This document shows, one piece after another, positions 1 through 38,550 of a stretch of 38,550 nucleotides of DNA. Made by a program: the position numbers and the translations under genes. The notes below the pieces were generated by a model. That model searched no databases. It saw only the letters and a list, made by a program, of their open reading frames with translations, and had not been told where the DNA came from. The stretch lies in the IMG/VR virus record IMGVR_UViG_3300042402_001956, positions 1 through 38,550 of that record; one strand, written 5' to 3'. The DNA comes from a virus. Position 1 is the stretch's first letter. Every line of letters begins with the position of its first letter.

Positions 1-154
1 AACAGGTGTTCTAATTCAAAGCAAACACGCGTAAAAATAAATAAAAAATAGTAGAAATAAGTGGCATAAATACTTGCACTAACTTTGAATTTACGGGAAG
101 GTATGTCTTACCAGGGCGAAAGCCCCCCAAACGAAAGAAGGCGCAAAATGTACA
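1..154. repeat. Terminal direct repeat, left copy (contig circularises)
   Basis: The first 154 bases recur at 38397-38550 with one difference: C at 28 versus A at 38424. The repeat contains an A-rich block, the early promoter-leader module and the first codons of the gene at 148. The simplest reading is a circular map of about 38,396 bp. A real short terminal redundancy is the alternative. The related upstream block at 37250 also has C at the variable position, so C is probably the original base. Confidence 0.93.
74..142 (+). promoter_or_regulatory. Promoter-leader module copy 1 with GAAA-loop hairpin
   Basis: TTGCAC (74-79), 22 nt, TATGTC (102-107), 6 nt, then GGGCGAAAGCCC (114-125), a 4-bp stem closed by a GAAA tetraloop. 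A Shine-Dalgarno AGAAGG lies just before the ATG at 148. The same spacing occurs at 32924 and 37288. If TATGTC is the -10 box, transcription would start at the base of the hairpin. No good -35 is present here (TAACTT at 80-85, 16 nt spacer), unlike the TTGTyG of the other copies, so this promoter may depend on the A-rich block at 25-73. Confidence 0.6.
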
Positions 155-447
155 CAGCAACAGACAGCAAGATTGTAAACGCGGTAGTTGAAATCGCAAT
201 GAGCGGCGAGATCGATGTGCCACAGGACAACGACTTTGGCGGAGCGGATCTTTGGAAGCCAGGGCAACTTGGAGTGAAGTTTACAAAGAGCAACGATCGC
301 TACCTTGCAGAGGGAGTTCGAGTTGCGGTTGAAGACAACCAAATCACCCTTTACAAGTTTGAACGATCAGGGGTCAGCCGCTCAATCAAGATGAGCGACA
401 CTTGCAGCGAGGCTTTTCTAATCGCAGCAATCCAGGAGTTGCTATGA
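148..447 (+). CDS. Hypothetical early protein, first gene of left operon
   Basis: A 99-residue protein of no recognised family, with mixed charge and no membrane segment. The ATG at 148 is chosen because AGAAGG stands 6 nt before it. A longer open frame from 85 would run through the conserved hairpin leader. The gene lies directly behind promoter-leader copy 1 and the SOS-box candidate, so it is probably the first early product. Its stop overlaps the next start (ATGA at 444-447), which implies translational coupling. Its start is duplicated in the terminal repeat at the right end. Confidence 0.8.
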   Translation: MYTATDSKIVNAVVEIAMSGEIDVPQDNDFGGADLWKPGQLGVKFTKSNDRYLAEGVRVAVEDNQITLYKFERSGVSRSIKMSDTCSEAFLIAAIQELL

Positions 448-16175: not shown

Positions 16176-16222
16176 AATAAAGAAGGAGGGTGCGTCAGAT
16201 AGTGGGCGCACCCTTCTTTATT
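16176..16222 (+). terminator. Stem-loop terminator after major capsid gene
   Basis: AATAAAGAAG plus GGGTGCG pairs with CGCACCC plus TTCTTTATT around a short loop, with a 3-nt bulge on the left arm. The right arm ends in a T-rich run. The long stem and position between capsid and connector genes suggest partial termination that raises capsid over downstream expression. Confidence 0.78.
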
Positions 16223-23997: not shown

Positions 23998-25011
23998 ATG
24001 ACAGTTAGAACCCCGCCCAGTTGGTTGCAGAACGGATCGCACCCTGCTGAAAACGATCGCCTTACAACCCAGGCGCTGTGGGCTACCACAGGTATCATCA
24101 ACAGCGCATCTTTACTCGTTACGCAAAACACTCCTGCGGGTCTTTCTGTTGTTGTTGCATCAGGTTGGGCGGCAATTGTGGGAACCACGCAAGCCAACAT
24201 GGGAACTTATGTAACTTACAACGATGCAAGCGTTGTTCTTTCTTTGAACACAGCCGATCCAACCAACCCACGCATTGACCTTATTTGCGCAACTGTAAAT
24301 GACGCTTATTACACAGGATCGCTAAACAATGTGGTGATCCAGGCAATTGCGGGAACTCCTGCGGGATCGCCTGTGGCTCCAAGCCTTCCAGCCAACTCCA
24401 TTACCTTAGCCACCGTTGCCGTAGGCGCGGGCGCAACTGCGATCACAAACGCCAACATCACAGACACACGCGTTTTGGTTACAACCAACATCCCTGAGTC
24501 GGGCGACATCAGCGCCGTCAACGCTGGCACAGGTCTTTCAGGCGGCGGATCAAGCGGCTCTGTGACTTTGGCTATTGACACAGCCGTGACTGCCGATCTT
24601 ACAACGGCACAAACTTTGACTAATAAAACTTTAACAAGCCCAACTATCAACGGCGCTACAATCGCAACTTCTACTCTCACTAGTCCAAAGATCAACCTAG
24701 GCATTAACGCGCAAACAGGGACCACCTACACCACGGTTCTAGATGATAACGGCAAACTTGTAACGCAAACTAACGCCAGCGCAATAGCAACAACCATTCC
24801 TTTGAACTCAAGTGTGGCTTATCCAATCGGCGCTCAAATAAACATCGCGCAAATGGGTGCGGGCCAAGTGACAATTTCAGGGGCAAGTGGTGTAACCATC
24901 GCTTCAACAGGCGCAACCGCAACTGCACCTAAGTTGAGAGCGCAATATTCAACAGCCACGGCGGTTCAAACCTCAACTGACACATGGTTAGTTATGGGTG
25001 ACATTTCATGA
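23998..25011 (+). CDS. Tail fibre/baseplate protein with repeat C-terminal module
   Basis: This 337-residue protein has an N-terminal baseplate-like domain (NGSHPAENDRLTTQALWAT, DPTNPRIDLICATVND). The C-terminal half starts near residue 178 with NAGTGLSGGGSSGSVTLAID and runs to the end. That half is duplicated, with clear similarity, in the gene at 25262 (TADLTTAQTLTNKT and PKLRAQYS match PKLRARYS). AGGAG precedes the start. It is likely part of a host-binding tip complex. Confidence 0.75.
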   Translation: MTVRTPPSWLQNGSHPAENDRLTTQALWATTGIINSASLLVTQNTPAGLSVVVASGWAAIVGTTQANMGTYVTYNDASVVLSLNTADPTNPRIDLICATVNDAYYTGSLNNVVIQAIAGTPAGSPVAPSLPANSITLATVAVGAGATAITNANITDTRVLVTTNIPESGDISAVNAGTGLSGGGSSGSVTLAIDTAVTADLTTAQTLTNKTLTSPTINGATIATSTLTSPKINLGINAQTGTTYTTVLDDNGKLVTQTNASAIATTIPLNSSVAYPIGAQINIAQMGAGQVTISGASGVTIASTGATATAPKLRAQYSTATAVQTSTDTWLVMGDIS

Positions 25012-25262: not shown

Positions 25263-25966
25263 TGGCAGTTGTAACACAAATCCAAGTACGCAGGGGAACT
25301 GCCTCTCAATGGACTTCAACTAATCCAACGCTTGCTGCTGGCGAGTGGGGTTTTGAGACTGACACGCTTAAAGTAAAGATTGGTAACGGATCAACAGCCT
25401 GGAACTCTTTAGCCTATCAAGGTGCGGGTGATATTGAAGGCGTAACTGCTGGCACAGGTCTTAGCGGCGGTGGAACTTCAGGAACTGTCACCGTTTCAAT
25501 TGACACATCGGTCACGGCCGATCTGACAACTGCACAAACCCTCACTAATAAAACTATTGATGCTGCAAGTAATACTTTAACTGGTGTAGTCACTCTTACT
25601 GGAACGCAAACGCTAACCAATAAAACTTTAACTGATCCAAAAATTAATTTAGCCTTTGATGCTGAAACTGCGTCTTATACTGCTGTTCTTGCTAACAATG
25701 GTCAAGTTGTTACCATGGACAATGCCTCGGCTAACACATTTTCTATTCCAACCAACGCGTCTGTTGCCTTCCCAATTGGCACGCAAATAAATGTTTTACA
25801 AATCGGTGCAGGGCAAACAACAATTCAGGCTGTAACGAGTGGTACCACAACGATCCAATCAACTGGCGCAACTGCCGCCGCGCCAAAACTTCGAGCGCGT
25901 TACAGTGCAGCCACTTGCATTAAAGCAGGAACTGATCTGTGGTATGTAATAGGAGATATTGCCTAA
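25262..25966 (+). CDS. Tail fibre protein with Mtd-like N-terminus
   Basis: The first 50 residues (TQIQVRRGTASQWTSTNPTL, AAGEWGFETDTLKVKIGNGS) match the N-terminal domain of phage major tropism determinant-like fibres. The remainder is the same module as the end of the gene at 23998. It includes TAGTGLSGGGTSGTVTVSID and a TLTNKT element present twice rather than once. It ends AGTDLWYVIGDIA. The stop overlaps the next gene as TAATG. Confidence 0.78.
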   Translation: MAVVTQIQVRRGTASQWTSTNPTLAAGEWGFETDTLKVKIGNGSTAWNSLAYQGAGDIEGVTAGTGLSGGGTSGTVTVSIDTSVTADLTTAQTLTNKTIDAASNTLTGVVTLTGTQTLTNKTLTDPKINLAFDAETASYTAVLANNGQVVTMDNASANTFSIPTNASVAFPIGTQINVLQIGAGQTTIQAVTSGTTTIQSTGATAAAPKLRARYSAATCIKAGTDLWYVIGDIA

Positions 25967-32869: not shown

Positions 32870-32895
32870 ATTATGCCTGTAATCACGCCTGTAAT
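32870..32895. promoter_or_regulatory. Tandem GCCTGTAAT repeats in divergent promoter region
   Basis: GCCTGTAAT occurs at 32875-32883 and again at 32887-32895, with 12 bp periodicity. The first copy touches the minus-strand CATAAT (-10 candidate for the leftward gene). About 40 bp to the right begins the rightward promoter-leader copy 2. Two phased half-sites in a divergent promoter look like an operator. The half-site TGTAA also appears as a palindrome at 36617. Confidence 0.45.
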
Positions 32896-32923
32896 GTATC
32901 CGCCACGCCCGATCCAGGGGTCC

Positions 32924-32992
32924 TTCCAATTGTCGGTGGCGTGTGCCAAGGTATTCCTTACAAGGGCGAAAGCCCCCCTACAGAAAGGAAGG
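32924..32992 (+). promoter_or_regulatory. Promoter-leader module copy 2 with GAAA-loop hairpin
   Basis: TTCCAA (32924-32929), 22 nt, TATTCC (32952-32957), 6 nt, then GGGCGAAAGCCC (32964-32975). A -35-like TTGTCG (32930-32935) sits 16 nt before TATTCC. AAAGGAAGG precedes the ATG at 32996. The hairpin and spacing equal copies 1 and 3, while the surrounding bases differ, so the module is conserved by selection rather than recent duplication. Confidence 0.62.
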
Positions 32993-32995
32993 CTC

Positions 32996-33556
32996 ATGGC
33001 CGAGAAATACAGCCTTGAGGATTACGAAACGGTCGAAGCGCGTCTCCGCCGTCTATACGAAAAATACCCAACAGCCCGATTGCTTACAGAACTGATCTAC
33101 CAGGATGAGCGCCGCTTCATCTGTAAGACATTCTTGTATCTTGATCCGAAAGACAACACCCCGCACTCAACAGGCTATGCCGAGGAGATTGTGGGCGCTG
33201 GGTTTGTAAATAAAACATCGGCCCTTGAGAACTGCGAAACTTCCGCGATTGGCCGCTGCATAAGCAACTCCGTTCTTTGCCTTGGCGCACCAGTTGGCAA
33301 GCGCCCATCTCAAGAAGAGATGCAAAAGGTCGAACGCTACAAAGCAGAACCACGCAAAGCACCAGTAAAGAAACTCTCCTGGACTGACGATCAATTGAAA
33401 CTCGCCGAAGCAGCCATTCAGACGGTTGCTGCGATGAGTGACAAAGAGAAGTTGCGCGAGTTGTGGACTGGAAGCGCCGAGATTATTGACGCGCCAGTAA
33501 AAGGAACCACTCTAAAGGATGTAATCAATGCACGCGTTGCGGAGTTGAGCGCTTAA
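32996..33556 (+). CDS. Putative ssDNA-annealing/recombination protein
   Basis: At 186 residues, with YEKYPTARLLTELIYQDERR and FLYLDPKDN in the first half, then NKTSALENCETSAIGRCISN near residue 75. The last element resembles the ETSAxGRAL motif of phage ERF/Sak-type annealing proteins. The C-terminal part is Lys-rich and helical. It is the first gene behind promoter-leader copy 2 and precedes a Cas4-like nuclease and RusA, a context that fits recombination. Function is inferred from the weak motif and neighbours. Confidence 0.6.
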   Translation: MAEKYSLEDYETVEARLRRLYEKYPTARLLTELIYQDERRFICKTFLYLDPKDNTPHSTGYAEEIVGAGFVNKTSALENCETSAIGRCISNSVLCLGAPVGKRPSQEEMQKVERYKAEPRKAPVKKLSWTDDQLKLAEAAIQTVAAMSDKEKLRELWTGSAEIIDAPVKGTTLKDVINARVAELSA

Positions 33557-37249: not shown

Positions 37250-37360
37250 ACACGCGTAAAAATAGTCAAAATAAGTGCCACAAATACTTCCAATTGTTGC
37301 CGATCCATGCCAATGTATGTCTCAACAGGGCGAAAGCCCCCAAGAGAAAGAAGGCAAGAA
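37250..37360 (+). promoter_or_regulatory. Promoter-leader module copy 3 with shared A-rich block
   Basis: ACACGCGTAAAAATA and AATAAGTGCCACAAATACTT (37250-37289) match positions 25-75 near-identically apart from an 11-bp deletion. TTCCAA (37288-37293), 22 nt, TATGTC (37316-37321), 6 nt and GGGCGAAAGCCC (37328-37339) follow. TTGTTG (37294-37299) is 16 nt before TATGTC. AGAAGG precedes the GTG at 37362. Copies 1 and 3 thus share both the upstream block and the hairpin, copy 2 only the hairpin module. Confidence 0.65.
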
Positions 37361-37361
37361 A

Positions 37362-37766
37362 GTGTCGGACAACCTAAGCACACGATTTGATGCAGCGATG
37401 AAAGAGATCCGCAAGTCAGGTGTAAGAGCAACACGGAATGTGATGGGCTGCTGCCGATCATGTATTTCAGCAGGTAGCGAGTCAAACCACAAAGTTATTT
37501 GGCATTACGGTGGCCAAGGTAACCGCTTCCAGGTTTATGCAGACTGCGCAGCAGAGCCAGGATGGGATGGCAGAGAAGTTCGTGAGGTTTATTTCAACCA
37601 CGACAACCTTGATGAAACAGAAATCGCGGCGATCGTGGCAATCTTTAATAAGCACGACATCGCAGCCAGCAACGAAGGACTGCACCTTTGCATTGTGATC
37701 GACTTCGAGGCATCAAAGCGCCGCGATCCAAAAGCAATCGATGCAGACATGATGGTGATGGTATGA
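37362..37766 (+). CDS. Hypothetical protein with CCRSC motif (134 aa)
   Basis: The GTG start at 37362 lies 7 nt after AGAAGG, at the same distance from the hairpin as gene 148 in copy 1. In-frame ATGs at 37275 and 37317 would translate through the leader and are rejected. The product has a helical start, then GCCRSCISAG near residue 30, VYADCAAEPGWDG, and a helical VYFNHDNLDETEIAAIVAIF. The Cys pattern and overall plan recall the DUF6891 type of actinobacterial protein, with low certainty. Confidence 0.7.
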   Translation: MSDNLSTRFDAAMKEIRKSGVRATRNVMGCCRSCISAGSESNHKVIWHYGGQGNRFQVYADCAAEPGWDGREVREVYFNHDNLDETEIAAIVAIFNKHDIAASNEGLHLCIVIDFEASKRRDPKAIDADMMVMV

Positions 37767-38396: not shown

Positions 38397-38408
38397 AACA
38401 GGTGTTCT
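38395..38408. promoter_or_regulatory. Candidate SOS box (LexA operator) upstream of early operon
   Basis: The sequence CGAACAGGTGTTCT is a palindrome (GAACA, GG, TGTTC). It matches 13 of 14 positions of the Gram-positive/actinobacterial LexA box CGAACRNRYGTTYG. It lies about 75 bp upstream of the TTGCAC element of the first early promoter once the contig is circularised. At the left contig end only part of it remains. The match is seen directly; binding by a host LexA is inference. Confidence 0.6.
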
Positions 38409-38550
38409 AATTCAAAGCAAACAAGCGTAAAAATAAATAAAAAATAGTAGAAATAAGTGGCATAAATACTTGCACTAACTTTGAATTTACGGGAAGGTAT
38501 GTCTTACCAGGGCGAAAGCCCCCCAAACGAAAGAAGGCGCAAAATGTACA
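38397..38550. repeat. Terminal direct repeat, right copy
   Basis: Second copy of positions 1-154, ending two codons into the repeated start of the first early gene. It carries the same promoter-leader module (38470-38538) and the single A for C change at 38424. Joined to the left end it completes the region upstream of gene 1, including a LexA-like palindrome cut by the contig boundary. Confidence 0.93.

Follow-up and report, generated by a model that had tools for sequence, protein, structure and literature searches.

Three leaders with a common hairpin

Why should the same short hairpin stand between promoter-like boxes and the start codon of three separate genes in one phage genome? In the window analyzed here (the whole 38,550-nt stretch of DNA, a 38.5-kb IMG/VR record with repeated ends), the sequence GGGCGAAAGCCC occurs exactly at 114, 32964 and 37328 on the + strand. 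Its spacing to a promoter-like pair is fixed in each case, and a gene start follows closely. Four exact matches to this 12-mer were seen against 0.01 expected from dinucleotide shuffles, the fourth (38510) being copy 1 again, which shows up twice because it lies in a direct terminal repeat of 154 nt (1-154 / 38397-38550; one mismatch, 99% identical). This repeat suggests that the genome is circular or terminally redundant.

A preliminary description had reported the order TTsCAm, 22 nt, TATkyC, 6 nt, hairpin at 74, 32924 and 37288, which was confirmed together with its spacings. The 20-22 nt that it placed between a ribosome site and the start codon in fact separate the hairpin end from the start codon, with the purine-rich ribosome site between the two. 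The features of the window, all on the + strand, are as follows.

74..79, +, copy 1, -35 box TTGCAC, 17 nt upstream of the proposed -10, in the same frame as TTGACA-17-TAATnT of relatives
97..102, +, copy 1, proposed -10 box GAAGGT (nAnnnT), 11 nt upstream of the stem
102..107, +, copy 1, TATGTC, 22 nt after TTGCAC and 6 nt before the hairpin
110..147, +, copy 1, predicted 5' leader with +1 at about A110, judged from the -10 position
114..125, +, copy 1, stem-loop GGGC-GAAA-GCCC, 22 nt before ATG; 5'-arm pairing probability 0.997 in the predicted RNA
133..141, +, copy 1, ribosome site GAAAGAAGG, from sequence
148..447, +, copy 1, first gene, ATG start, 99 aa, without Pfam or PHROGs match
32924..32929, +, copy 2, -35 box TTCCAA, from sequence and the relatives' frame
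32947..32952, +, copy 2, proposed -10 box CAAGGT; CAACCT, CAATCT or GATATT at the homologous position in relatives
32952..32957, +, copy 2, TATTCC, 22 nt after TTCCAA and 6 nt before the hairpin
32964..32975, +, copy 2, stem-loop GGGC-GAAA-GCCC, 20 nt before ATG; pairing probability 0.863, with a competing fold that takes in the Shine-Dalgarno (SD) sequence
32983..32992, +, copy 2, ribosome site GAAAGGAAGG, from sequence
32996..33556, +, copy 2, first gene, ATG start, 186 aa, PHROG 11717 (no function assigned)
37288..37293, +, copy 3, -35 box TTCCAA, from sequence and the relatives' frame
37311..37316, +, copy 3, proposed -10 box CAATGT; homologous to TAATGT (L225), GATATT (L230) and GATGTT (L237)
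37316..37321, +, copy 3, TATGTC, 22 nt after TTCCAA and 6 nt before the hairpin
37328..37339, +, copy 3, stem-loop GGGC-GAAA-GCCC, 22 nt before GTG; pairing probability 0.998
37346..37354, +, copy 3, ribosome site GAAAGAAGG, from sequence
37362..37766, +, copy 3, first gene, GTG start, 134 aa, without assigned function; unrelated genes follow the same leader in relatives
38397..38550, +, right copy of the terminal repeat, 154 nt, with the second image of copy 1 (hairpin 38510-38521)

The gene behind copy 2 contains a motif, SALENxETSAIGR, which we take to resemble that of Erf/Rad52-like annealing proteins. A pattern scan of the window for nAnnnT, 9-12 nt, hairpin, SD and start codon returned exactly copies 1-3. 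The fold energy of the isolated hairpins is unexceptional (z -0.4 to -1.7), so the case for the element rests on its recurrence and on its relatives.

The genome encodes terminase, portal, tape-measure and tail genes, a ParB/methyltransferase fusion, SSB, RusA, Rep and a WhiB regulator. The latter, together with a portal homologue of 83% identity on an Actinomycetota MAG contig, indicates an actinobacterial host. A strong hairpin at 16183-16218 (AAGGAGGGTGCGTC-agatagtg-GGCGCACCCTTCTT, with T's at the end) between two structural genes is a probable terminator. Neighbouring tail genes contain a 131-nt direct repeat (24500-24630 / 25425-25555, 73% identical), and the second of them has a major-tropism-determinant N-terminal domain.

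Promoter and predicted transcription start

The preliminary description took TATkyC for the -10 box and the first G of the hairpin for +1, and comparison with relatives makes both assignments improbable. Close relatives that keep the hairpin (L143, L146, L147, L230) lose TATkyC, with TTAACC in its place in L143, TAGGAC in L146 and TAGTTA in L230, whereas they retain a hexamer nAnnnT 10-11 nt before the stem (CAACCT, AAACCT, GATATT), which would place +1 3-5 nt before the stem. TATkyC is thus rejected on homology and not on matrix score, the -10 hexamers proposed for the window being weak themselves (promoter scores 1.4-1.8, not above those of TATkyC). The cleanest relatives read TTGACA, 17 nt, TAATnT, 11 nt, stem, and in this frame the three window copies become TTGCAC-17-GAAGGT-11, TTCCAA-17-CAAGGT-11 and TTCCAA-17-CAATGT-11. 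Over 84 leaders the mean promoter score peaks 11 and 10 nt upstream of the stem, nAnnnT lies 9-12 nt before the stem in 79 of them (background 27%), and leader length is 38 ± 3 nt.

The -10 box is probably [CG]AAkGT, 17 nt after TTsCAm, 11 nt before the stem and about 5 nt upstream of TATkyC. With the stem 10-11 nt after the -10 box, and hence 3-5 nt from the predicted +1, transcription would begin upstream of the hairpin at A110, A32960 and A37324, and four nucleotides (ACCA, ACAA and AACA, respectively) would be free before the stem. The earlier view that the mRNA opens with a stem-loop stands insofar as a selected RNA feature lies at or near the start of the three messages, and it has to be amended by the approximately four free bases that precede it. 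The set of proteins scanned, which covers part of the small ORFs, contains neither an RNA polymerase nor a sigma factor; host polymerase was therefore assumed, and a hairpin promoter of the N4 virion RNA polymerase type was rejected on the same scan.

Copies 1 and 3 have an upstream block in common (29-78, 37254-37292), GCGTAAAAATA ... AAATAAGTGsCAyAAATACTTsCA, and GTGCCACAAATnyT recurs 5' of copy 3 in many relatives. Given the weak -10 boxes of the window, this block is possibly an activator site or an UP-like element. The region 5' of copy 2 (32870-32912) carries a different element, GCCTGTAATnnATCCGCCACGCC, which close relatives keep and for which distant ones have CGACTCGCCAnGC at the equivalent place.

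Distribution among related phages

A scan of IMG/VR for TATnnC-6-GGGCGAAAGCCC recovered 22 DNA stretches. Roughly two thirds are clear relatives, and two stretches have all three copies in unchanged order. Whole related records have two or three copies each, and in three records one copy carries GGAA in place of GAAA. More distant relatives, located via the portal, the copy-2 gene and RusA, mostly lack GGGCGAAAGCCC; the equivalent position, after the promoter and before the ribosome site, is taken by other hairpins, including GGGGCAATCCTGCCCC, GGTTCCGACTGGGAACC, GGAGCAACCATGCTCC, GGAGCGCACAAGCGTTCC, GGGCGCGTTGCGCCC, GATTGGGGAAGGCTCCGATC and GGGAGATGGACTCCC. The family is large, with at least 590 stretches homologous to the portal and at least 585 to the copy-2 gene; leaders were inspected in about a hundred of its records. 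Relatives thus show the arrangement to be a conserved promoter-leader cassette of this large family of aquatic, probably actinobacterial phages.

The distance to the promoter is kept: in the window and 11 related records, the pattern scan found 35 places at a gap of 9-12 nt vs. 6 to 18 at other gaps. The letters are not kept. The 84 leaders comprise 33 distinct stems and at least 40 loops, and two leaders within one genome can carry unrelated stems (G002, G003, G005), while in the clade of the window all three stems are GGGC and the loop remains GNRA (GAAA or GGAA). Nor is the cassette bound to a particular gene, 24 unrelated protein families being found behind copy 3 across relatives.

A more distant relative (G009, L137; TerL 51% identity) has two cassettes on the minus strand of G009:C1 with stems GGGC-aaaca-GCCC, one of them behind TTGACA-17-TATGTT-11, and the arrangement thus extends past the close family. 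When all viral contigs were searched for TTGACA-17-TAATnT-8-TAAGG, only 6 of 82 sites had a stem of 4 bp or more and a loop no longer than 7 nt, all six in this phage group, which makes the hairpin a family trait rather than a general promoter feature. A pattern with CAG/CCCAA flanks gave three matches, none of them this element. Only one cultured actinophage was found to have a homologue of the copy-2 gene, phiPsal1 of Pontimonas, and inspection by eye showed no such hairpin in it. A search for the promoter pattern in the single MAG that has a portal homologue yielded four sites, which is below its control.

Selection on pairing

Flanking letters rather than pairing were used to locate the 5' arm in 56 distinct leaders, among which 12 different arms occur. 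In 95% of these leaders a complete 4-nt Watson-Crick partner lies downstream, compared to 23% after leaders with different arms had exchanged their 3' sides, and the observed pairing was reached in none of 2000 arm-class permutations; as a caution, the leaders share ancestry, and their tree is not modelled in the permutation. In the ungapped clade alignment 100% of stem cells are paired and both variable pairs change doubly, whereas slid versions of the stem reach at most 78%. The gapped alignment A3 was too ragged and was left out of pair counting. G-U pairs are present in several stems.

Since pairing is kept while the letters change, these results indicate that the RNA stem is maintained by selection, with shape rather than letters conserved. 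The comparison with relatives proposed in the preliminary description thus came out in its favour, the stem being kept through compensatory change and its distance from the -10 box being kept as well. A simple helix score separated all leaders from other gene starts only modestly, in part since the controls included further cassettes and duplicate leaders and since an SD-complementary stretch confused the choice of the longest helix.

A possible role in 5'-end protection

The simplest reading of the cassette is 5'-end protection. A host-type promoter (-35 TTsCAm, 17 nt, -10 [CG]AAkGT) would start the message 3-5 nt before a 4-bp GC hairpin, so that the RNA would consist of about four free nucleotides, the stem-loop, about 20 nt with an open ribosome site, and the start codon. 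Selection acts on pairing and on the distance to the promoter, not on the letters of stem or loop. The stem-loop and the initiating ribosome behind it would leave almost no free 5' end for enzymes of the RppH, RNase E or RNase J type, and the shielded early phage mRNA would be longer-lived. In the predicted RNA the 5' arm pairs with an average probability of 0.97, and the region from SD to start codon is unpaired with a probability of 0.66 with the hairpin and 0.67 without it; being equally open in both cases, the SD is not locked by the hairpin. It is the position that stays constant: roughly 4 nt separate the stem from the predicted 5' end and, in most leaders, 18-21 nt separate it from the start codon, so that little of the leader would remain free once a 30S subunit is bound.

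RNase E and RppH require single-stranded 5' ends, which accounts for stabilising 5' structures, and RppH of B. subtilis needs two free 5' nucleotides and prefers three or more (PMC3997798). The four free nucleotides of the cassette may therefore suffice for RppH-type enzymes, which counts against protection, as do the short 4-bp stem, the competing fold of copy 2 and the weak -10 hexamers of the window. In the actinobacterium M. smegmatis, a double stem-loop in a 5' UTR conferred no stability, and across the transcriptome half-life did not follow 5' structure (PMC11728522). This is the main objection and speaks against a general protective role; because of it, we put at close to an even chance that a shape-dependent 5'-terminal stem-loop before an open ribosome site passively prolongs the life of early phage mRNA. 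Recurrence, spacing, covariation, independence from the downstream gene and a predicted open SD are shown, and from these the start point, the protection and its importance in infection are inferred. It is more doubtful, though conceivable, that this whole family of aquatic actinobacterial phages builds its early promoters as a fixed combination with a shape-only 5' hairpin that gives phage messages an edge over host mRNA in decay or loading; this would be a portable 5' 'cap', so far without counterpart in mycobacterial mRNAs.

A role in translation offers another explanation: the 5' hairpin might tie up GC-rich and upstream sequence, keeping the 30S site open, or mark the upstream edge of the ribosome footprint, and thereby aid initiation instead of acting on decay. 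In most leaders 18-21 nt separate the end of the stem from the start codon, approximately the reach of the 30S footprint, and SD accessibility falls slightly when the hairpin segment is shuffled (0.627 vs. 0.662, p 0.0005). Deleting the hairpin, however, leaves accessibility unchanged (0.666), so the site is open independently of it, and we consider this role unlikely. Less probable still is a phage or host factor, or RNA polymerase, binding the short 5' hairpin in the manner of N/boxB, put or a translational regulator. The clade of the window would suit it, with its three constant GGGC stems and GNRA loop (GAAA or GGAA), but across the family and between leaders of one genome the letters of stem and loop are free. 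Given the 33 stems and 40 or more loops counted over 84 leaders, a sequence-reading protein is improbable as a general explanation, and the 24 unrelated families behind copy 3 speak against a feedback site of one product. The suggestions made earlier that a phage protein recognises the GAAA loop, or that the hairpin acts like put, are not supported, given these free letters and the unrelated stems that two leaders of one genome can carry.

A switch as in T4 gene e, for which there is a precedent (PMC3014915), would have read-through RNA fold TTCCTT onto the SD and stay silent, while locally started RNA would lack that arm and be translated. In the L247-L300 clade (after RusA), the stretch just before +1, TTCCTT or TTTCTTT, is complementary to AAGGAA or AAAGAAA of the SD. 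The outer helix is paired in 87.7% of its cells, and the two sides change together in part of the clade; copy 2 of the window also has TTCCTT/AAGGAA (32953-32959 with 32986-32990). Yet the complement amounts to only 4 nt in copies 1 and 3, is absent from most relatives of copy 2 and shifts register between sequences, and pyrimidine-rich and purine-rich stretches pair easily by chance. The pattern is not general and may be compositional, and as an account of the cassette the switch seems quite improbable, slightly more so than a bound factor. Least probable is a palindromic DNA operator just 3' of +1 for a phage repressor or activator: GGGCnnnnGCCC is palindromic and identical in the three window copies, but the arms are constant neither within one genome nor from relative to relative, and there are G-T mismatches at positions where the RNA would still pair.

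Comparison with known systems

The arrangement was not found described in the open literature, to which the search was confined. The covariance models of Rfam 15 gave no match at the gathering threshold in the window and none at E ≤1 around copies 2 and 3. An intrinsic terminator was rejected, the stem being followed by CCCC and an A/G-rich ribosome site with no U run, and so was a lambda-type nut site (boxA-boxB), a boxA-like TGTCTTA lying mostly 5' of the predicted +1 and not being kept in relatives, with the loop free.

HK022 put resembles the cassette as a nascent RNA structure near an early phage promoter, but comprises ~70 nt with two long stem-loops and specific bases for binding RNA polymerase (PMC9378689), whereas here there is a single 12-nt stem-loop with free letters. 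In the leaders of T4 genes e, soc, 49 and I-TevI, too, a promoter lies beside or inside the DNA encoding a leader hairpin (PMC3014915); there the hairpin hides the SD of long transcripts, whereas that of the cassette is predicted to leave the SD open, and outer-arm pairing with the SD of the gene e type is limited to one clade and copy 2 of the window.

Closer in setting are the SAS/ESAS elements of Cluster K mycobacteriophages (PMC3203893, PMC11373665), short GGGnnn...CCC repeats before the starts of non-structural actinophage genes, in some cases preceded by a promoter element. The letters of SAS, the asymmetric 13-mer GGGATAGGAGCCC, are constant; it lies 3-9 nt from the start codon and is present in 11-19 copies (PMC3203893, PMC11373665). 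The cassette has a true, covarying stem ~20 nt from the start, occurs in 2-3 copies and always has a promoter upstream; with a core that differs from GGGATAGGAGCCC and about 20-22 nt to the start codon, it was not assigned to SAS, and may serve as a comparison case for these unexplained elements.

The most similar working mode would be that of the 5'-terminal stem-loop mRNA stabilisers of the ompA type (Emory et al. 1992, as cited in PMC7509114; mechanism in PMC3997798). The dependence on pairing rather than letters that characterises them is seen here by an evolutionary test, covariation. Known stabilisers of this kind sit on single genes; for a family-wide, letter-free and gene-independent hairpin tied to phage promoters as a repeated cassette, the literature searched held no description. 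Its geometry, a stem 10-11 nt after the -10 box, provides a rule for finding promoters and operon starts in uncultured phage genomes. The protection reading also leads to a testable prediction on mRNA decay, for a group of bacteria in which the host data now available point in the opposite direction.
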